Shown piece by piece: positions 28,874 to 37,376 of a stretch of DNA of 39,186 nucleotides. Positions within the stretch are counted from its first letter, which is position 1; every line of letters begins with the position of its first letter. The DNA lies in assembly GCA_030535235.1 (NCBI GenBank), contig JAUNCL010000022.1:1-39186 (forward strand). The letters run 5' to 3'. This DNA is from Bacillota bacterium (GTDB lineage Bacteria > Bacillota > Clostridia > Oscillospirales > Oscillospiraceae). The translations under genes were made by a program, and so were the position numbers. The notes beneath the pieces are model-generated. The model had not been told where the DNA came from, did not search any database, and was given only the letters and a program-made list of their open reading frames with translations.

Positions 28874-29125
28874 GGCCTGTTGCAAAATTAACAAAATGCA
28901 CAACCCCAAACGAATGTATGGCGGGTCAAACGCGAAAGGCTCCCTCTGATGAGGGAGCTGGCACGACGAAGTCGTGACTGAGGGAGAGATAATCCGTGTG
29001 AAAGGGTATTCCAGTCTTTCTCGCTGGGGTATCTCTCCCTCCGTCTTCGCCCTGCGGGCGAATCCACATCCCTCATCAGAGGGAGGCTTTTCATTTTGTG
29101 AACCCTGCGCATTTTGCAACAGGCC
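28874..29125. mobile_element. MITE-like element with 15-bp terminal inverted repeats
   Basis: The 252-base segment begins GGCCTGTTGCAAAAT (28874-28888) and ends with its exact complement ATTTTGCAACAGGCC (29111-29125). No coding sequence is present; the interior carries copy 2 of the palindromic repeat. The end sequence CATTTTGCAAC recurs at 37366-37376 beside the IS1182-like transposase remnant, so mobilisation by that family is plausible. Confidence 0.65.
28936..29090 (+). repeat. Palindromic dispersed repeat, copy 2 (nested in the TIR element)
   Basis: Starts AAGGCTCCCTCTGATGAGGG and ends with the complementary CCCTCATCAGAGGGAGGCTT. The left arm continues AGCTGGCACGACGAAGTCGT then GACTGAGGGAG, the same order as copies 1 and 3; the right arm has CTCCCTCCGTCTTCGCCCTG and GCGGGCGAATCCAC, also like copy 3. 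Confidence 0.8.
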
Positions 29126-29132
29126 CTTTCGA

Positions 29133-29187
29133 TTTAATCAAATCTTAAGACTTTCCCTATTTTTTCTTTGGAAACATGGGTTACAAT
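29133..29187 (+). promoter_or_regulatory. Regulated promoter of the first secreted-protein gene (motif copy 1)
   Basis: TTTAATCAAATCTTAA (29133-29148), then 33 bases, then the -10 box TACAAT (29182-29187). No -35 match is seen, as at activator-dependent promoters. The motif and spacing recur at 30404 and 30614. Confidence 0.65.
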
Positions 29188-29247
29188 GAGACTGTCACAA
29201 GGAACTGGTCCTGCTTTGACAGGAATTTTTGAAAAGGAGGCACTCTC

Positions 29248-30384
29248 ATGAAAAAGCGAACCCGAATCACTGCCTGCCTGACAGCCGGTGTGCTCATCCT
29301 GGCGGTCTCCGCCACAGCGGCCTTCGGCAGCGCCAACGGCTACTCTTCCTACAAAAACGCGGTGATGGACCTGGCCCTCAAGGAGGAGAACTTCTCCGCC
29401 AAGGGGACCGTGGAGGTCAAGCTGGACGGCAAGGCTTTCACCACCATGGACGTGGACTACGCCCAGGACGGCGTGAACCGCTCCACCTGCACCACCACCA
29501 CCGAGGACGGCGAGACCTACACCCACTGGGACACCACGCTGAACGGAGAGAATACCTGGTTCAGCTCCGAAAGCGACGTCTACTGGCAAGCCCAGGTGGA
29601 CCGGGATAACACCACCCTCCTGGGGTACGACAAGAACGACGAGATGCAGTCTCGTCTCATCAACTTCCTCTCTATCGCCGCCGACACCGTGGCCGGTGAG
29701 CTGAAGAACAACTTTGTCCAGGTGGGCTCCCAGGACGGCAAGGACCTCTATCAGGTGTCCATCTCCGGCAGTCAGGTCCCCTCTCTGGTGAACGCCGGGC
29801 TCTCCCTCTTCGCCTATGAGGCCGCCGGCGGGGACAACGATGACTGCGGCCACATCACCTGGGACAGCTACTGGGGCGCGGAGATCGCCTATTACGAAAA
29901 GACCACCGGCGAGACCCTGTCCCAGGAGCTGAAGACCGCTCTGATCGAGGGCTATGACGAGGCCTTCTACCAGGCCCACATGGCAGAGATCAACAAGCTG
30001 GACGAAAACAGTGACAAGATGTACGACTACTACAGCGAGATTCTGGAACAGAAGGGTAACGTGGGCGTCGTGTATATCAAGGACGACGGCAGCTATGACT
30101 ACTACCCCACCTGGATGGACTACCGGGCTGCACAGGGGGGCCAGGGTGCGGACAATCTGGATTACTATGTCGCCAAGGAGCTGACCCTGGAGCAGGTGGA
30201 CTGCACCTTTGCCCTGGACAAGGACGGCCGGCTGACAGACAACCAGATCACCGCCAGCTTCACCGCCACCGACGCCAAGGGCGGCCGCCACACCCTGGAG
30301 GTCACCGCCGACCTGACGGTCAGCGACTACGGAACCACCCAGGTCCAGCCTCTGGACGTGGGCGACCGGACCAAATCTGCGTAA
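29248..30384 (+). CDS. Secreted protein of unknown function, paralogue 1
   Basis: A 378-residue exported protein. The N-terminus is a signal peptide or anchor (MKKRTRITACLTAGVLILAV, then SATAAFGSANG); no lipobox Cys is placed for lipid attachment. The mature part is Asp/Tyr/Thr-rich and acidic. It shares with the next gene the blocks LILAVSATAAFGS, ELKNNFVQVGS, VPSLVNAGLSLFA, YYEKTTGETLS, ILEQKG, DYYPT and a C-terminal segment VDCTFALDKDGRLTDNQIT with SFTATDAKGGRH. I do not recognise the family. The location before an ABC transporter and two-component system suggests a role in envelope sensing or defence. Confidence 0.85.
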   Translation: MKKRTRITACLTAGVLILAVSATAAFGSANGYSSYKNAVMDLALKEENFSAKGTVEVKLDGKAFTTMDVDYAQDGVNRSTCTTTTEDGETYTHWDTTLNGENTWFSSESDVYWQAQVDRDNTTLLGYDKNDEMQSRLINFLSIAADTVAGELKNNFVQVGSQDGKDLYQVSISGSQVPSLVNAGLSLFAYEAAGGDNDDCGHITWDSYWGAEIAYYEKTTGETLSQELKTALIEGYDEAFYQAHMAEINKLDENSDKMYDYYSEILEQKGNVGVVYIKDDGSYDYYPTWMDYRAAQGGQGADNLDYYVAKELTLEQVDCTFALDKDGRLTDNQITASFTATDAKGGRHTLEVTADLTVSDYGTTQVQPLDVGDRTKSA

Positions 30385-30403
30385 CTACAGAGGCAACTTC
30401 ATA

Positions 30404-30451
30404 AAATCTTAAGAATTTGCCCATGGTTTGTTCATGGTTATCTGCTATCCT
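30404..30451 (+). promoter_or_regulatory. Regulated promoter between the secreted-protein genes (motif copy 2)
   Basis: AAATCTTAA (30404-30412), 33 bases, then TATCCT (30446-30451). The intervening bases share CC(C)AT and TTTGTTC with the other two copies. It lies 20 bases after the first gene and would produce a short transcript up to the hairpin at 30564-30593, or read through into the second gene. Confidence 0.5.
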
Positions 30452-30457
30452 GTGGAT

Positions 30458-30600
30458 ACTGGAACGGGCGGGCGGCCCCTTGTCGGGCGCGGGCAGCCTG
30501 CCAACCGTTTCCTCCTTTTGTCTTTTCTTTCTCTTCCTCTTTCCTCTCTTTTGCGCCTGACCCGCCGCCCCTTGCCTTCCGGCAAGGGGCGGCTCTTTGC
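30458..30600 (+). ncRNA. Candidate small RNA or long leader
   Basis: The segment starts after motif copy 2 and ends at a strong GC hairpin (30564-30593). It contains a pyrimidine-rich tract of about 55 bases (30508-30560). An overlapping open frame from 30428 has no codon bias like its neighbours and runs through the hairpin and the next promoter, so it is not taken as coding. The RNA is inferred only from promoter and terminator placement. Confidence 0.3.
30564..30600 (+). terminator. Hairpin upstream of the second secreted-protein gene
   Basis: 13-bp stem GCCGCCCCTTGCC / GGCAAGGGGCGGC with loop TTCC, followed by TCTTTGCTTCTTC. The T content is moderate. Confidence 0.65.
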
Positions 30601-30613
30601 TTCTTCGGAAAGA

Positions 30614-30668
30614 TTTAATCAAATCTTAATAGAATCCCTATCCTTTTTTCAGGAATCTACGGTATAAT
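30614..30668 (+). promoter_or_regulatory. Regulated promoter of the second secreted-protein gene (motif copy 3)
   Basis: TTTAATCAAATCTTAA (30614-30629), 33 bases, then TATAAT (30663-30668). The 16-base upstream motif is identical to that at 29133. Confidence 0.7.
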
Positions 30669-30732
30669 AAGATTGTCAAGCAGATCAGTTCCCCAACGGG
30701 ACATTCCATATCTCACCAAAGGAGGAATTTCC

Positions 30733-31866
30733 ATGAAGAAGCAGCGCAGACTGATGGTCTGTCTGGTGGCCGGTGTCCTCATCCTGGCGGTCTCCGCCAC
30801 GGCGGCCTTCGGCAGCGTCAACGGCTACACCAAGTACAAGACCGCCTTGAAGGCCCTGGCCATGGAGGAGGACAACTTCACCGCCGCCGGGACCCTGACC
30901 GCCTCCCTGGACGGCAAGGAGGTCATGAAGGTCCAGGCCGACTACACCATAGCCGCCCCCGACTATGCCCTGTCCACCACCGCCACCCAGAACGGCCATA
31001 CCTATGCGGAATACAACGGCACCGTGGATGGGGTCTACACCTGGCACCACGGCGGCGACACCTACTGCCAGTACGACCAGGACGAGGGCCAGAAGAATTT
31101 CCTGGGGTTTGATGCCAGCGACGAGATGCAGAGACGTCTGGTTACCTTTATGGAGTTGGCCGCCGACACCGTGGTGGGCGACCTGAAAAACAACTTCGTG
31201 GAGGTGGGCAGCGAGAACGGCAGCACCCTCTATCAGGTGAACATCGCCAACAGTCAGGTCCCCTCCCTGGTCAACGCCGGGCTCTCCCTCTTCGCCTGCG
31301 CCCTGGCCGAGGATCAGTCCACCGTCAGCACCGTCCGCTATGAGGACTACGACGCAAACACCTTTGCCTACTACGAAAAGACCACCGGCGAGACCCTCTC
31401 CGAGGACTTCAAGAACGGCTATCTCTACGGCGGCGACGACGCCTGGCACGAGGCCAACGAGGCCCAGCTGGACAAATTCTATGACGTCATCTCCAAGGAC
31501 TGGGAGAATGAATACTACCAGATCCTGGAGCAGAAGGGCAGCGGCGTTGTCTACGTCTACACCGACGGCACCTATGACTACTACCCCACCATGCGGGATT
31601 TCGCCAGCGCCCACCCCAGCGGCAACCTCTCCGATGACCTGTATTACTATGTGGGCAAGGACATGGTGCTGGACAACGTGGACTGCACCTTCGGCGTGGA
31701 CCAGAACGGCAGACTGACCTCCAACCAGATCACCGTCACCTTCACCGCCACCGACCTGGACGGCGGCCGCCATGCGCTGGTTCTCACCGGCGACCTGCAG
31801 GTCAGCGATTACGGCTCCACCGTGGTGGAGCAGCCCGACCTCACCGGAAAAACCAAGGTCAACTGA
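30733..31866 (+). CDS. Secreted protein of unknown function, paralogue 2
   Basis: A 377-residue protein colinear with paralogue 1 over its whole length: signal region MKKQRRLMVCLVAGVLILAV then SATAAFGSVNG, and conserved blocks DLKNNFVEVGS, VPSLVNAGLSLFA, YYEKTTGETLSED, YYQILEQKGSGVVYV, DGTYDYYPT, VDCTFGVDQNGRLTSNQIT and FTATDLDGGRHAL. AAGGAGG precedes the ATG at 30733. The tandem copies share upstream control sequence too, so a segment including the promoter was duplicated. The ABC transporter genes follow with no separate promoter seen, only a possible attenuating hairpin. Confidence 0.85.
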   Translation: MKKQRRLMVCLVAGVLILAVSATAAFGSVNGYTKYKTALKALAMEEDNFTAAGTLTASLDGKEVMKVQADYTIAAPDYALSTTATQNGHTYAEYNGTVDGVYTWHHGGDTYCQYDQDEGQKNFLGFDASDEMQRRLVTFMELAADTVVGDLKNNFVEVGSENGSTLYQVNIANSQVPSLVNAGLSLFACALAEDQSTVSTVRYEDYDANTFAYYEKTTGETLSEDFKNGYLYGGDDAWHEANEAQLDKFYDVISKDWENEYYQILEQKGSGVVYVYTDGTYDYYPTMRDFASAHPSGNLSDDLYYYVGKDMVLDNVDCTFGVDQNGRLTSNQITVTFTATDLDGGRHALVLTGDLQVSDYGSTVVEQPDLTGKTKVN

Positions 31867-31906
31867 TCAAACCGGGACATCTCGTTCCTTCTCACATCAC
31901 GGCACA

Positions 31907-31945
31907 GCCCCGGAGATTCTCACCCTCCGGGGCCGGCCGTCCTTT
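31907..31945 (+). terminator. Possible attenuator between the secreted-protein genes and the ABC transporter
   Basis: Stem GCCCCGGAG / CTCCGGGGC (31907-31915 and 31925-31933) with a 9-base loop, then CGGCCGTCCTTTTG. The T run is short, so partial read-through into the ABC genes is likely. Confidence 0.5.
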
Positions 31946-31974
31946 TGACACACCCGCCTGGAAAGGAGCAGCTT

Positions 31975-32709
31975 TTGGATATCGTACTGAATCTGGACCA
32001 TGTGTCCAAGGTCTACGGCAATGGCCGGGGGGCCAGGAACATCACCTTCTCCGTGGAACGGGGCCAGGTGGTGGGCCTGCTGGGCCCCAACGGCTCCGGC
32101 AAGACCACCATTATGAAGTCCATCACCGGGCTCTGCCAGCCCACCGAGGGGACCATCACCGTCTTCGGCGCCAACGCCGTGGACCACAGAGAGACCGCCC
32201 TGGCCAGGGTGGGCACGCTCATCGAGCAGCCCGCCCTCTATGAAAACCTCACCGCCCTGGACCATCTGCGGATGGCCGCCCGGTACTACCCCGGGGTGGG
32301 ACAGGCCCGGATGGAACAGGTCCTGGAGATCGTGGGGCTGTCCCAGTATAAGAAGGAGCGCTGCGGCAAGTTCTCCCTGGGCATGAAGCAGCGGATGGGT
32401 CTGGCCCTGGCCCTTCTGTCCGAGCCGGAGCTGATGATCCTGGACGAGCCCACCAACGGCCTGGACATCGAGGCCACCGTGGAGATCCGAGAAATCATCA
32501 TCCGTCTGGCCAAAGAGAAGGGGGTCACCTTCCTGGTGGCCAGCCATCTGGCCTCGGAGATCGAGAAGATGTGCACCCATGTGCTGGTTCTCCACGAAGG
32601 GGAGATGCTCTCCTTTGTCACCAAGGAGGAGGCCCTGCGGCTGAACCCCTCCCTGGAGGACTACTTCCTGGCCAAGGTGCGGGACAAAAAAGGCTCCGTG
32701 GTTCTGTGA
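31975..32709 (+). CDS. ABC transporter ATP-binding protein (TTG start)
   Basis: A 244-residue ATPase of the CcmA/BcrA type. Walker A is GPNGSGKTT, the Q-loop is near LIEQPALYENLTALDHL, the signature is FSLGMKQRMGLALALL, Walker B is LMILDEPTNGLDI and the H-loop is ASHLASEIEKM. The start is TTG at 31975 with AAAGGAG six bases upstream. The LGMKQR variant and length match exporters for bacitracin, lantibiotics or other cell-surface peptides, but the substrate cannot be told from sequence. The partner permease follows 12 bases later. Confidence 0.9.
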   Translation: MDIVLNLDHVSKVYGNGRGARNITFSVERGQVVGLLGPNGSGKTTIMKSITGLCQPTEGTITVFGANAVDHRETALARVGTLIEQPALYENLTALDHLRMAARYYPGVGQARMEQVLEIVGLSQYKKERCGKFSLGMKQRMGLALALLSEPELMILDEPTNGLDIEATVEIREIIIRLAKEKGVTFLVASHLASEIEKMCTHVLVLHEGEMLSFVTKEEALRLNPSLEDYFLAKVRDKKGSVVL

Positions 32710-32721
32710 GGAGGGATACCC

Positions 32722-33474
32722 ATGACACAATTTATGGCAAACTGGAAAAATGAACTGTTTAAGCTGCGGAAGCGGAAAAAATACTTCGTCTTTCTCATCC
32801 TGGGCTGCGCCATCTGCGTGGCCAGCGCCCTGCGGCTGGTCATCGCCAACTTGATCACCGGCGGGGCCATGTCCCCGGAGACCATGCTGGGAGGGCTGAC
32901 CACCGCCAACCTGCCCTTCCTCCTGCTGCTCTTCCTCCCCCTCATGGCCATTATGGCCGCCTGCGACCTCTTCGTGACGGAGCAGGCCGACCACACCATC
33001 CGTTTCTCCCTCATGCGGCCTGTGGGCAAGGGAAAGCTCTTCTTCTCCAAGGCCACGGCGGTCTTTACCCTGTGTGCCATTGACCTGGCAGTTCTCTATC
33101 TGGTCACTGCCCTCACCCAGGTCATCTTAGGGGGCGGCACCCGGGGCCTGGGCAGCGGCCTGCTGGCCTGCCTGCTGGACCTCATCCCCCTGGCGGTGCT
33201 CATCCTCTTCTTCTGCCTGGTGAACCAGCTCATCAAGAGCGCCGGCCTGACGGTGCTGCTGTGCGTGGTCCTCTATGTGGGCTTCCTGGCCCTGGGTACT
33301 TACCTGCCCGCCTTCGGGGGGCTGCTCTTCACCGGCTACCTCCGGTGGCACAACCTGTGGATCGGCGTGACCCTGCCCTTCCTGTCCATGCTCTCCCGCA
33401 TCGGCCTGCTGGCCGGCTACGGCCTGGTTTTCGCCTGCGGCGGGTACCTGCTGTTTGACCGGAAGGAAGCGTAA
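32722..33474 (+). CDS. ABC transporter permease
   Basis: A 250-residue membrane protein with about six hydrophobic segments and an N-terminal MTQFMANWKNELFKLRKRKK, typical of ABC-2 / BcrB-like permeases that follow CcmA-type ATPases. Recognisable helices include YFVFLILGCAICVASALRL, LPFLLLLFLPLMAIMAACDL, LLDLIPLAVLILFFCLV and IGLLAGYGLVFACGGYLLF. GAGGAGGG precedes the ATG at 32722. A palindromic repeat separates it from the sensor kinase. Confidence 0.85.
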   Translation: MTQFMANWKNELFKLRKRKKYFVFLILGCAICVASALRLVIANLITGGAMSPETMLGGLTTANLPFLLLLFLPLMAIMAACDLFVTEQADHTIRFSLMRPVGKGKLFFSKATAVFTLCAIDLAVLYLVTALTQVILGGGTRGLGSGLLACLLDLIPLAVLILFFCLVNQLIKSAGLTVLLCVVLYVGFLALGTYLPAFGGLLFTGYLRWHNLWIGVTLPFLSMLSRIGLLAGYGLVFACGGYLLFDRKEA

Positions 33475-33486
33475 GCTTTCGCGTTT

Positions 33487-33614
33487 TCGCTCCCCCTCTG
33501 GGGGAGCTGGCACGGCGCAGCCGTGACTGAGAGGGCCGCTCTTCACCGACACAAATTGCCCTCTCCGTCCTCGTGCCTGCGGCCCGAGTCCACCTCTCCC
33601 AAAGGGAGAGGCAA
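33487..33614 (+). repeat. Palindromic dispersed repeat, copy 3 (between permease and kinase)
   Basis: About 128 bases: left arm CGCTCCCCCTCTGGGGGAGC, then TGGCACGGCGCAGCCGTGAC and TGAGAGGG; right arm TGCGGCCCGAGTCCACCTCT, CCCAAAGGGAGAGGC. It has the same orientation as copy 2 and opposite to copy 1. It forms the 5' leader of the sensor-kinase gene, whose ribosome binding site begins about 8 bases after it. Confidence 0.8.
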
Positions 33615-33636
33615 GAGGGATAAGGAGGACCCGTAC

Positions 33637-34788
33637 ATGCGAAATAAAACTACCCTGCGAGGCCGGTTTTTTCAGACCGGCCTCCTGATGCTGGGTCTGT
33701 CCCTGGTGGTGGCCCTGGCTCTGGTGGCGGCCATGCTCTTTCTGTTCAGCGCCCAGGTGCCGGAGGGAGAGAGCTTTGTCCTCACCGTGGTGGACCTCTT
33801 CTTAGGGGAACTGAAAGGCCCCGGCCGGATGCTGCCCTACCTGATTTTGGGCATCCTCCTGCTGTGCCTGTCCGTGGCGGCGGTGTGCATCGCCCTGACC
33901 TCCCGGCTCACCGGCCAGATCGGGGCCACCCTCAAGACCCTCCGCCGGGCCGCCGACCGGCTCCGGGAGGGGGACCTGGACTTTGAGATCCTCTCCTGCC
34001 GGGAGCGGGAGCTGGACGAGCTGGGCCAGTCCCTGGAGAGCGTCCGCCAGCGGCTGAAGCAGGCCGCCGCCGCCGAGGCCGCCGCCCAGGAGGAGCGAGG
34101 GCTGCTCATGGCCAACCTCTCCCACGACATGCGCACCCCCATCACCGCCATCAAGGGCTATGTGGAGGGCATCCGGGACGGCATCGCCAACACCCCGGAG
34201 AAGCAGGCCCACTACCTGGACATCGTCTACAGCAAGACCCTGGTGCTGGAGAAATTAGTCCGAAACATGACCGACTTCTCCGAGTTCGAGCTGGGCCGGA
34301 TGCAGTACCACTTTGAGTATGTGGACATGACCGACTTCCTCACCGACCTGGCGGAGGAATACCGCCTGGAGGCCCAGGGGGCGGAGATGCGCTTCACCAG
34401 CCAGCTGGCCCCGGGCCGGTTCCTGGTGACCGCCGACCGGAACAAGCTCAAGCGGGTGATGGACAACCTCATGTCCAACGCCATCAAGTACGGCCGGCCC
34501 GGCGGCTCCATCCACCTGACGGCGGAGCCCTACGAGGGAGGGCTGGTCCTCCAGCTCTCCGACAATGGCCGGGGCATCAGCAGCCAGGCCCTGGCCCATG
34601 TCTTTGACAGCTTTTTCCGGGCGGACGCCGCCCGGTCCAGCGCCGTGCCGGGCAGCGGCCTGGGTCTGGCCATCTGCCGGGCCATCATGGACAGCCACCA
34701 CGGCAAGATCTGGCTCACCAGCGAGGAGGGCGAGGGCACCCGGGCCTTCCTCTATCTCCCCCTGCAGAAAGAGGAGGACATTTTATGA
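33637..34788 (+). CDS. Sensor histidine kinase
   Basis: A 383-residue kinase. Membrane segments lie at about 13-37 and 65-88, with a short outer loop of about 27 residues, so direct sensing of a large ligand is unlikely. It has a HAMP linker (about 89-145), a HisKA domain with LSHDMRTPITAIKGYVEG (His about 163), and an ATPase domain with DNLMSNAIKYG, LSDNGRGIS and GSGLGLAICRAI. The tiny sensor loop resembles intramembrane-sensing kinases that work with ABC transporters, such as BceS, although BceS lacks HAMP. AAGGAGGAC precedes the ATG. It overlaps the regulator gene by ATGA. Confidence 0.92.
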   Translation: MRNKTTLRGRFFQTGLLMLGLSLVVALALVAAMLFLFSAQVPEGESFVLTVVDLFLGELKGPGRMLPYLILGILLLCLSVAAVCIALTSRLTGQIGATLKTLRRAADRLREGDLDFEILSCRERELDELGQSLESVRQRLKQAAAAEAAAQEERGLLMANLSHDMRTPITAIKGYVEGIRDGIANTPEKQAHYLDIVYSKTLVLEKLVRNMTDFSEFELGRMQYHFEYVDMTDFLTDLAEEYRLEAQGAEMRFTSQLAPGRFLVTADRNKLKRVMDNLMSNAIKYGRPGGSIHLTAEPYEGGLVLQLSDNGRGISSQALAHVFDSFFRADAARSSAVPGSGLGLAICRAIMDSHHGKIWLTSEEGEGTRAFLYLPLQKEEDIL

Positions 34789-35474
34789 AAATACTGATCA
34801 TCGAAGACGACCAGAGCGTGGCCGAACTGGAGCGGGACTATCTGGAGATCAACGGCTTTACCTGCACCCTGGCCGCCGACGGTACCCAGGGCCTGACGCT
34901 GGCCCTGGAGGAGGACTTCGCCCTGGTTATCGTGGACGTGATGCTCCCGGGGCTCAGCGGCTTTGAGATCTGCCGCCGCCTGCGGGAGGTGAAGGACACC
35001 CCGGTCATCATCATCTCCGCCCTGGCCGACGACATCGACAAGGTCCGGGGCCTGGGCCTGGGGGCCGACGACTACATGACCAAACCCTTCAGCCCCAGCG
35101 AGCTGGTGGCCCGGGTGAAGGGCCACATCCAGCGGTATGAGCGGCTGGTGGGCAGCCGGGAAAAGCCCCGGCCGGAGATTTTGAAGATCCGGGGCCTGGA
35201 GATCGACCGGGAGGCCCGCCGGGTGTGGGTCAACGGCCGGGAAAAGACCATGACCGGCAAGGAATACGACCTGCTTCTCTTCCTGGCCGAGCACCCGGAC
35301 ACGGTGTTCTCCAAGGACCGGCTCTTCGACAACGTGTGGGGCATGGACGCCTACGGCGATGTGTCCACGGTGACGGTGCACATCAAGCACATCCGGGACA
35401 AGATCGAGATCGACCCCGAGCACATCCAGTACATAGAGACCGTCTGGGGCGTGGGCTACCGCTTCCGGGGATAA
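34785..35474 (+). CDS. OmpR/PhoB-family response regulator
   Basis: A 229-residue regulator. Receiver domain: ILIIEDD (acidic pocket), phospho-acceptor Asp about 51 in VIVDVMLPGLSG, and the conserved Lys in YMTKPFSPSELVARV. The C-terminal winged helix (about 130-229) has GKEYDLLLFLAEHPDTVFSK, DVSTVTVHIKHIRDKIE and VWGVGYRF. The start overlaps the kinase stop. It is the natural candidate to bind the AAATCTTAA motif upstream of the secreted genes; that link is inference. A decayed paralogous 3' end lies at 21193. Confidence 0.94.
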   Translation: MKILIIEDDQSVAELERDYLEINGFTCTLAADGTQGLTLALEEDFALVIVDVMLPGLSGFEICRRLREVKDTPVIIISALADDIDKVRGLGLGADDYMTKPFSPSELVARVKGHIQRYERLVGSREKPRPEILKIRGLEIDREARRVWVNGREKTMTGKEYDLLLFLAEHPDTVFSKDRLFDNVWGMDAYGDVSTVTVHIKHIRDKIEIDPEHIQYIETVWGVGYRFRG

Positions 35475-36629: not shown

Positions 36630-37376
36630 CTACGCGGTCATTTTCTTGGAAACACGGGTCTGCAGCCTGCCTTGTTCCCGCTTCATCCAGTATTTCTTCA
36701 GATCAAAAGCCAGGGCCAACAGGAACATTTCAGTCCGCACATTGGCTATGCCCCGGGTGAGAAACCTGCGGAACCCAAAGTCATTCTTCAGCAGCGCAAA
36801 CGCGCCCTCTGCCTGAATAGAGCGGCACTGCCTCAGGTGAATGCCCCGCGGCGAAGTAATATTTTCCGTTGCCTGTGCCCGCAGTTCCCAAAAGGCCCTT
36901 TTCACATGCAGCATCTTTGCCTGTTCCGGATCCTTTGCTTGGCAACGCTTAGTCCGCTTTGGGCAATTGGCACAGCTTTCCAGCTTGGTGCCGTCGATGA
37001 ATACCGTCCGGTGATCCACCTCGCCCAGTTCCTCCAGCTTCCTGCTGGAATAGATCCCGCACATATAACCGAATACCAATACCTTGAACAACACCCGCGG
37101 ATCGGCTGCCTATTCTCCCCAGGGGAGAATAGGCGCTATACAGCTTTTCGTAGTCCAACTCCTCCAACATTGCGCTTGCCAGCCGGACGGGTGCGTTCTC
37201 CGGTATTATTTTTTCACTGTTCAGTACAAAAACCAGTTGACCATTCCGCTCTGATACCTTAAACTGGTCTTGCGTTTTATTGTTTTTCACAACTCAATTT
37301 TAACGCATATAAGACGAGAGGCCAACCCTTACGGGCCAGCCTCTCGTCTTATTTTTTGGACCGTTCATTTTGCAAC
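36630..37376 (-). mobile_element. IS1182-like insertion sequence remnant (transposase frameshifted and internally deleted)
   Basis: Transposase pieces on the minus strand: 36949-37290 starts MKNNKTQDQFKVSERNGQLV and reads to LYSAYSP; the continuation in another frame (36630-37121) has DPRVLFKVLVFGYMCGIYSS, RKLEELGEVDHRTVFIDGTK, LESCANCPKRTKRC and the C-terminal SIQAEGAFALLKNDFGFRRF. These blocks match the IS1182-type transposase order, but segments of roughly 30 and more than 150 residues are missing between RKLEE / LGEVDH and LESCAN / NCPKR. A perfect 27-base palindrome at 37107-37133 marks the frameshift. The right end carries CATTTTGCAAC (37366-37376). No matching left end is seen. Confidence 0.8.
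37309..37358 (+). terminator. Strong terminator at the IS right end
   Basis: 14-bp stem ATAAGACGAGAGGC / GCCTCTCGTCTTAT with a 16-base loop, followed by TTTTTTGG. It lies upstream of the transposase start, where it would shield the element from outside transcription. Confidence 0.85.

Follow-up and report, generated by a model that had tools for sequence, protein, structure and literature searches.

A secreted protein, an ABC exporter and a two-component system conserved behind an 11-bp-repeat operator in Clostridia

A conserved five-gene unit

The 39,186-nucleotide (nt) stretch of DNA analysed here (contig JAUNCL010000022.1 of assembly GCA_030535235.1; hereafter the window) comes from a Bacillota genome that sequence comparison places in the genus Evtepia. 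Its forward strand carries two tandem genes for secreted proteins (SP1 and SP2; SP for the family), followed by the ATPase and permease of an ATP-binding cassette (ABC) exporter and by the sensor kinase and OmpR-family response regulator of a two-component system (TCS). Judging from its relatives, SP, ATPase, permease, kinase and regulator form a five-gene unit that is conserved across the class Clostridia behind a conserved operator of 11-bp direct repeats. With roughly even confidence, we read this unit as a self-regulated envelope-defence module that would work like NisI + NisFEG + NisRK. Its genes in the window are the following.

29248..30384, forward strand: SP1, secreted protein of 378 amino acids (aa); intact open reading frame (ORF), no curated family, N-terminal hydrophobic segment at residues 7-25
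30733..31866, forward strand: SP2, secreted protein of 377 aa, paralogue of SP1; intact ORF
31975..32709, forward strand: ABC ATPase, 244 aa; best NCBIfam match TIGR03740 at 207 bits, below the cut-off of 309.75
32722..33474, forward strand: ABC-2 permease, 250 aa; PF12730, 6-7 hydrophobic segments, without a large extracellular domain
33637..34788, forward strand: sensor kinase, 383 aa; HAMP, HisKA and HATPase domains, two transmembrane (TM) segments with a 34-aa gap between them
34785..35474, forward strand: OmpR-family response regulator, 229 aa

A sequence-only reading of the window had proposed that both SP genes, the ABC pair, the kinase and the regulator belong to one unit. The class-wide search, which matched 50 of 391 genomes and 33 of 223 genera, bears this out: SP, ATPase and permease follow one another in that order in 50 of the 51 class loci fetched, the exception (L229) being a marginal SP-profile match to a small lipoprotein. 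Downstream of the SP and ABC genes, a kinase is present in 46 of the 50 loci and the regulator, completing the five genes, in 44; two loci lacking the regulator (L200, L225) reach their contig ends. A single permease gene lies between ATPase and kinase in the window, and the class loci likewise have one permease match per module. The reading had also described tandem secreted paralogues. Both copies are indeed intact and 51% identical over 378 aligned positions, but the class loci as a rule have a single SP per module, and the tandem copies are therefore not a defining trait. Tandem SPs also occur at loci L107 and L108.

Searches at other taxonomic depths gave a consistent picture. The order-wide profile search matched 16 of 394 genomes (9 of 168 genera), and nine of the 15 matching genomes besides the window's own hold all five genes. 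In G355 and G386 the module is split over contigs, the contig of G398 ends at SP, and G366, G535 and G592 gave weak matches without the module. A draw from the family returned SP in 7 of 300 genomes, two of another genus carrying the full module at lower identity, and a weak 48-residue match in G016. In a plasmid search SP2 matched one record and the second SP query none; the record, from Monoglobus pectinilyticus and titled a plasmid, holds the five genes as a hypothetical protein, an ABC ATP-binding protein, a permease, a HAMP kinase and a response regulator. Several related loci are titled as gut metagenomes.

A single-sequence scan of genome contigs returned no relative and an alignment query returned 19 loci; the matches include loci titled Evtepia gabavorous KLE1738 and Candidatus Evtepia species. 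Within the genus, SP is present in 11 of 16 genomes. These 11, and no others, also have an orthologue of the ABC ATPase (E at most 1e-100), and a search for the regulator (E at most 1e-80) picked out 12 genomes, the additional one (G304) being 74% complete with a contig that starts inside the kinase. Nine of the 11 have SP directly before the ATPase, and in G306 SP lies about 1.7 kb upstream of it. SP, ABC ATPase and regulator are all missing from two 99%-complete genomes (G044, G132).

The operator and its conservation

Three operator-like sites and their −10 hexamers lie in the window.

29134..29148, forward strand: SP1 operator TTAATCAAATCTTAA, two TTAA half-sites 11 bp apart (motif count, repeat scan)
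29182..29187, forward strand: −10 hexamer TACAAT, 33 nt past the second half-site
30398..30412, forward strand: middle operator-like site TTCATAAAATCTTAA, one mismatch in the first half-site
30446..30451, forward strand: weak −10-like hexamer TATCCT of the middle site
30615..30629, forward strand: SP2 operator TTAATCAAATCTTAA (motif count, repeat scan)
30663..30668, forward strand: −10 hexamer TATAAT, 33 nt past the second half-site

The motif reported by the sequence-only reading, AAATCTTAA, occurs exactly three times in the window against 0.06 expected from shuffles, and ten times in the 2.25-Mb genome against four for a backwards control. Each window copy stands exactly 33 nt before TACAAT, TATCCT or TATAAT, as had been claimed. 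The motif forms the downstream half of a longer element, TTAATCAAATCTTAA (TTAAT-N6-TTAA), in which two TTAA half-sites are set 11 bp apart. The 15-mer TTAATNAAATYTTAA has three exact matches in the whole genome, two in the window and one at C25:38087, so that the full motif is rare genome-wide, in line with the earlier expectation.

The middle site combines a defective first half-site (TTCAT) with its poor −10 hexamer; it is probably a degenerate promoter but, by analogy with CiaR-dependent small RNAs, may drive a short RNA. Its interpretation as the relic promoter of a lost SP gene was rejected, as positions 30385-30620 hold no SP coding trace. No extra site lies between the two SPs of G307, G239 or G302, and G193 has two operator-like sites before a single SP. 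Elsewhere in the window's genome, a near-match with one mismatch, TTAAGAAAATCTTAA (G000:C32:33612, locus L125), stands before another response-regulator gene with TATCAT at 35; an operator of this kind may serve a second TCS as well.

To follow the operator across relatives, sequences upstream of SP were scanned for two TTTA or TTAA words exactly 11 bp apart, with 300 shuffles for the Evtepia set. The Evtepia set left out the second SP of G308 and the 5'-truncated SP of G303; the more distant order set left out the second SPs of L107 and L108 and the near-copy L104; and the class set left out three of 50 loci (L200, L202, L204) with less than 150 nt upstream. The order and class sets have two loci in common, L064/L179 and L066/L180 being the same contigs. 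The word pair was found in all 16 Evtepia promoters (shuffle mean 0.9, maximum 4), in 17 of 19 more distant promoters (mean 2.6, maximum 6) and in 44 of 47 class promoters (mean 13.4, maximum 21). In the class promoters, other lags from 5 to 25 gave 6-24 loci, save lag 22 with 41. Three or four words in 11-bp phase were present in 31 of 47 class promoters and in none of 253 upstream regions of other ORFs at the same loci, 3% of which had the word pair; because these 253 regions are, from their location, probably largely coding and less AT-rich, the shuffles and the other lags are the stricter controls. The class consensus word is TTTATA-like, and the Evtepia operator reads TTTAAT-N5-CTTAAG.

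A −10 hexamer, counted at five or more of six matches to TATAAT, lies exactly 33 nt past the second word in most promoters of every set: 38 of 47 in the class set, 15 of 19 in the order set and 14 of 16 in Evtepia. Next in frequency among class promoters is offset 22, one repeat nearer, with 29 loci; offsets 20 and 38 follow with 10 loci each and 27 with 8. Because the hexamer at +33 recurs in all three sets, the 33-nt spacing is a family-wide regularity. The suggestion that the motif's position fits an OmpR-type activator is strengthened by this arrangement of 11-bp direct repeats at a fixed distance from the −10, which is OmpR-like, and the promoter scans indicate an operator that is conserved class-wide together with the module. 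We infer that the module's own regulator reads it. A link between loss of the operator and loss of the TCS was considered and dropped: among loci without a TCS, L226 lacks the word pair, L228 has it and the upstream sequence of L204 is too short.

The best evidence that the motif functions comes from an unlinked gene behind the same repeat. The third exact TTAATNAAATYTTAA match precedes a gene for a 151-aa exported protein (G000:C25:37574-38101, locus L120). This gene is found in four of 16 Evtepia genomes, and in all four the 11-bp repeat stands before it with a hexamer at exactly 33 nt. The small protein reached no Pfam family cut-off; its copy in G301 is lipoprotein-like (LAAC).

Hairpins between the genes

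Two hairpins in the window bear on how the unit might be transcribed.

30564..30593, forward strand: strong GC hairpin of 13 pairs, terminator-like, after SP1 and the middle site
31897..31941, forward strand: GC-rich hairpin without a long T-run, between SP2 and the ABC ATPase gene; the gap folds at z −2.85

GC-rich hairpins of differing sequence occupy the gap between SP and the ATPase gene at all nine Evtepia loci where the two are adjacent. Compared with dinucleotide shuffles, seven of eight gaps folded at z −2.6 to −5.3; G302, whose gap exceeds 150 nt, was excluded. These hairpins, which lack long T-runs, suggest partial termination or 3'-end stabilisation, either of which would yield an excess of SP over the transporter.

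The secreted proteins and the topology of their partners

The statement that SP1 and SP2 belong to no recognised family withstood searches of Pfam, NCBIfam and PDB profiles: neither protein reached a Pfam cut-off or matched NCBIfam, and 48 diverse SP homologues gave only single-member matches in these two libraries. SP homologues of the class set span 286-426 aa; larger ones, reaching 484-683 aa and some of them acidic at the C-terminus, occur at L102, L103, L105, L106, L047, L048 and L098. Many class SPs are probably cleaved and released, since 37 of 50 have AxA near the signal end and a pattern scan found neither a lipobox nor an LPXTG motif in these 50. The lipobox pattern occurs in two of 15 Evtepia SPs, SP1 among them, but is placed before the hydrophobic stretch. 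The row of L037 in alignments A2 and A3 starts one codon late.

SP is the fastest-diverging part of the unit, with the highest median protein distance of the five proteins (0.78, against 0.43 for the regulator). The distances of all five covary over the 64 of 67 loci that have all five genes (three were left out), the SP-regulator value being 0.56 against a permutation maximum of 0.14. This combination fits an exposed ligand-binding partner. In the Evtepia SP tree, first and second copies do not split into two clades, and therefore repeated duplication or loss, or poor resolution, must be assumed; orthology between first and second copies was rejected on this ground.

One lead to a fold emerged from profile comparison. 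Against six members of DUF6612 (PF20316), which we take to be LolA-like, SP scored a probability of 91.6 untrimmed and 44.7 without N-termini, while shuffled and reversed controls reached at most 0.2. One distant SP scores 22.3 bits with DUF6612, under the cut-off of 23.7, and the window SPs have no Pfam match to it. A lipid-binding, LolA-like fold is thus a weak lead.

TM segments of SP, permease and kinase were taken from a simple hydropathy scan, and eight of the 64 kinases detected gave no value for the gap between TM segments. The gap is 34 aa in the Evtepia kinase and mostly 17-42 aa in the nearer relatives measured. Most class loci among L200-L224 have a kinase with 89-140 aa in this region, a difference that points to a changed sensing input behind an unchanged operator.

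Comparison with known systems

Among the matches listed in the open-access literature of PubMed Central (PMC), no paper describes an SP-ABC-TCS module, nor do those listed for Evtepia gabavorous; subscription journals and preprints lie outside this scope. The same literature yielded no paper on DUF6612.

The sequence-only reading had offered Bce/Bcr-type peptide-resistance modules as analogues. The analogy fails on the permease. Bce permeases are described in the source passages as having 10 TM segments with a ~200-aa extracellular domain between TM7 and TM8 (PMC3023708, PMC5786555), whereas the window permease, with 250 aa and 6-7 hydrophobic segments, has no large domain, and the module adds a secreted protein. 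What BceRSAB shares is a TCS adjoining an ABC exporter and perhaps a fairly short kinase loop: 3-11 aa in the intramembrane-sensing Bce-type kinases (about 25 in another source), against the 34-aa gap of the Evtepia kinase by our simple scan.

A closer analogue in function is LanI + LanFEG + LanRK. In the accounts drawn on here, NisI is exported and partly released; it binds nisin and acts jointly with NisFEG, and a TCS belongs to the same system (PMC4828448, PMC5786555). As in NisI-NisFEG-NisRK, an exported protein, an ABC exporter and a TCS come together in the module, and the window ATPase finds its best score, though below the cut-off, with a lantibiotic-protection model, TIGR03740. SP differs from LanI in not being a lipoprotein, and the module has one permease gene where LanFEG has two different 6-TM permeases with one ATPase. 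Unlike lantibiotic systems, the module is widespread and its conserved unit is without a biosynthetic cluster, the neighbourhoods not having been scanned for biosynthesis genes.

Two further exporter systems are similar in outline. LnrJK-LnrLMN of B. subtilis responds to linearmycin and amphotericin, membrane-active inducers, through a TCS that controls the ABC exporter operon (PMC7472640); it resembles the module in this control, but LnrL, LnrM and LnrN come without a secreted protein in the portion of that source used. CprABC-CprK-CprR of C. difficile, of the LctFEG type, pairs a TCS with a 6-TM permease exporter (PMC5786555), but has two permeases and, in the portion drawn on, no secreted partner is described.

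For the operator, the nearest likeness is the CiaR site of streptococci, an 11-bp direct repeat (NTTAAG-N5-TTTAAG) 10 nt from the −10, and CiaR-dependent small RNAs exist (PMC3091779). On that partial account, the Evtepia operator shares the 11-bp repeat and the TTAA cores and is near the consensus, whereas the main pair of the module is set back from the −10 by 33 nt instead of 10 nt, the class words are TTTATA-like, and no SP-ABC module is described in the CiaR regulon. Further module half-sites often lie in 11-bp phase between the main pair and the −10. DUF6612, finally, shows weak profile-profile similarity to SP over N-terminal and middle parts.

Discussion

Taken together, a model for the module emerges. 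The phosphorylated OmpR-type regulator would bind the 11-bp repeats, which would replace a −35 box, and switch SP on strongly. Read-through beyond the hairpin between SP and the ABC genes would then give less transporter and TCS and close a positive feedback loop; positive autoregulation is likely, since operator and TCS genes share a strand, with the genes downstream. SP, presumably exported by Sec, probably cleaved and in molar excess, would bind a membrane-active compound (a peptide, lipopeptide or similar amphiphile) and thereby shield the membrane. Alternatively, SP would pass the compound to the single-permease ABC exporter or receive it from there. The arrangement would resemble that of NisI working with NisFEG under NisRK. 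In some Evtepia the regulon would add the second, unlinked small exported protein. We extend this model only tentatively, as a possibility, to a class-wide defence system in which the soluble, fast-evolving SP would supply in trans the extracellular ligand handling that a Bce permease carries in cis, capturing a membrane-active compound while the single-permease exporter cooperates and one TCS with its 11-bp-repeat operator sets the regulon.

Several observations weigh against the favoured NisI-like defence module. A lipobox, which defines LanI, is absent from all 50 class and all 22 order SPs by pattern scan, and a sequence-profile search of the PDB with SP alignments A4 and A5 returned nothing at E up to 10. 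The putative pairing of regulator and operator is drawn from linkage, and the upstream controls are, as noted, probably less AT-rich than promoters. The 11-bp pair is missing from three of 47 class promoters, two of them in full modules (L190, L196) and one without a TCS (L226). The gene for the 151-aa protein is missing from 12 of 16 Evtepia genomes, and where it is present, its hexamers (TAAAAT, TACGCT, TATATT, TAGGAT) match TATAAT at 5, 3, 5 and 4 of 6 positions. The SP-ABC gap of G300 folds at z −1.26, hardly better than shuffles; SP and ABC ATPase of G277 are on different contigs; and kinases with 89-140 aa between TM segments occur in many lineages. At L221 another gene follows the kinase in place of the regulator, and L204, L226 and L228, all of family f49, have no kinase within ~1.0, 1.9 and 4.3 kb past the permease.

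These f49 loci are a three-gene form of the module. Because they keep SP and the ABC genes without an adjacent TCS, SP appears tied to the transporter. The earlier expectation that SP would not occur apart from the ABC and TCS genes holds within Evtepia, where no genome has SP without the ABC ATPase, and gives way outside the genus at these three loci, where the adjacent TCS is missing.

The same loci bear on an alternative that we consider unlikely, in which SP serves the module as an accessory sensor and not as a decoy, binding an outside signal and presenting it to the kinase or the ABC permease. The 34-aa gap of the Evtepia kinase and a permease without a large loop would leave room for such a partner, and SP is co-conserved with kinase and permease, with covarying distances. 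Yet SP is kept in lineages whose kinase has the longer region between TM segments, three loci hold SP and ABC genes without an adjacent TCS, which slightly lowered the probability we give this alternative, and duplicated SPs together with a hairpin favouring SP excess better suit stoichiometric capture. We regard as similarly improbable that SP is a lipid or lipoprotein chaperone of LolA-like fold, the pump extracting an endogenous lipid-linked molecule for SP to carry in envelope maintenance rather than immunity. The DUF6612 profile similarity, the near-threshold score of the distant SP and the lipoprotein matched at L229 speak for it; the similarity is weak and partly dependent on the N-terminus, however, and the module's absence from the two near-complete Evtepia genomes suggests an accessory rather than a housekeeping role.

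Much less probable is that the module acts on a self-made peptide, in a circuit for signalling or toxin immunity to which SP or the small exported protein would belong. This could account for the shared repeat before a second small exported protein in four Evtepia genomes, but SP homologues of the class set, at 286-426 aa and with their own export signal, are unlike peptide precursors. That motif and module stand together by chance, or by shared ancestry without function, is largely contradicted and hardly credible: at three or fewer mismatches TTAATNAAATYTTAA is hardly commoner in the window's genome than its backwards control (69+63, or 132, against 63+57, or 120), but the 11-bp phase and the 33-nt spacing are kept where SPs are only 18-33% identical to SP2, and the unlinked locus carries the same repeat in four genomes of four.

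Two features of the window lie beside the module. Between a DegV gene and the SP1 promoter, nested inverted repeats at 28874-29125 form a palindromic element that looks like a small non-coding mobile or REP-like (repetitive extragenic palindromic) element; by eye, similar sequence recurs at about 33483-33620, upstream of the kinase gene, and between the SP and ABC genes of G302. Short minus-strand ORFs at 36630-37290 resemble transposase remnants, an impression from their translations.

If the favoured reading is correct, about one in eight evenly drawn class genomes (49 of 391, without the marginal G407) would carry an uncharacterised drug- or peptide-handling module. The operator would be a predictable promoter and a ready reporter, leading to the inducer and to the ligand of SP. 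The module would also bear on whether a secreted protein can stand in for the extracellular domain of ABC/two-component resistance modules already known.

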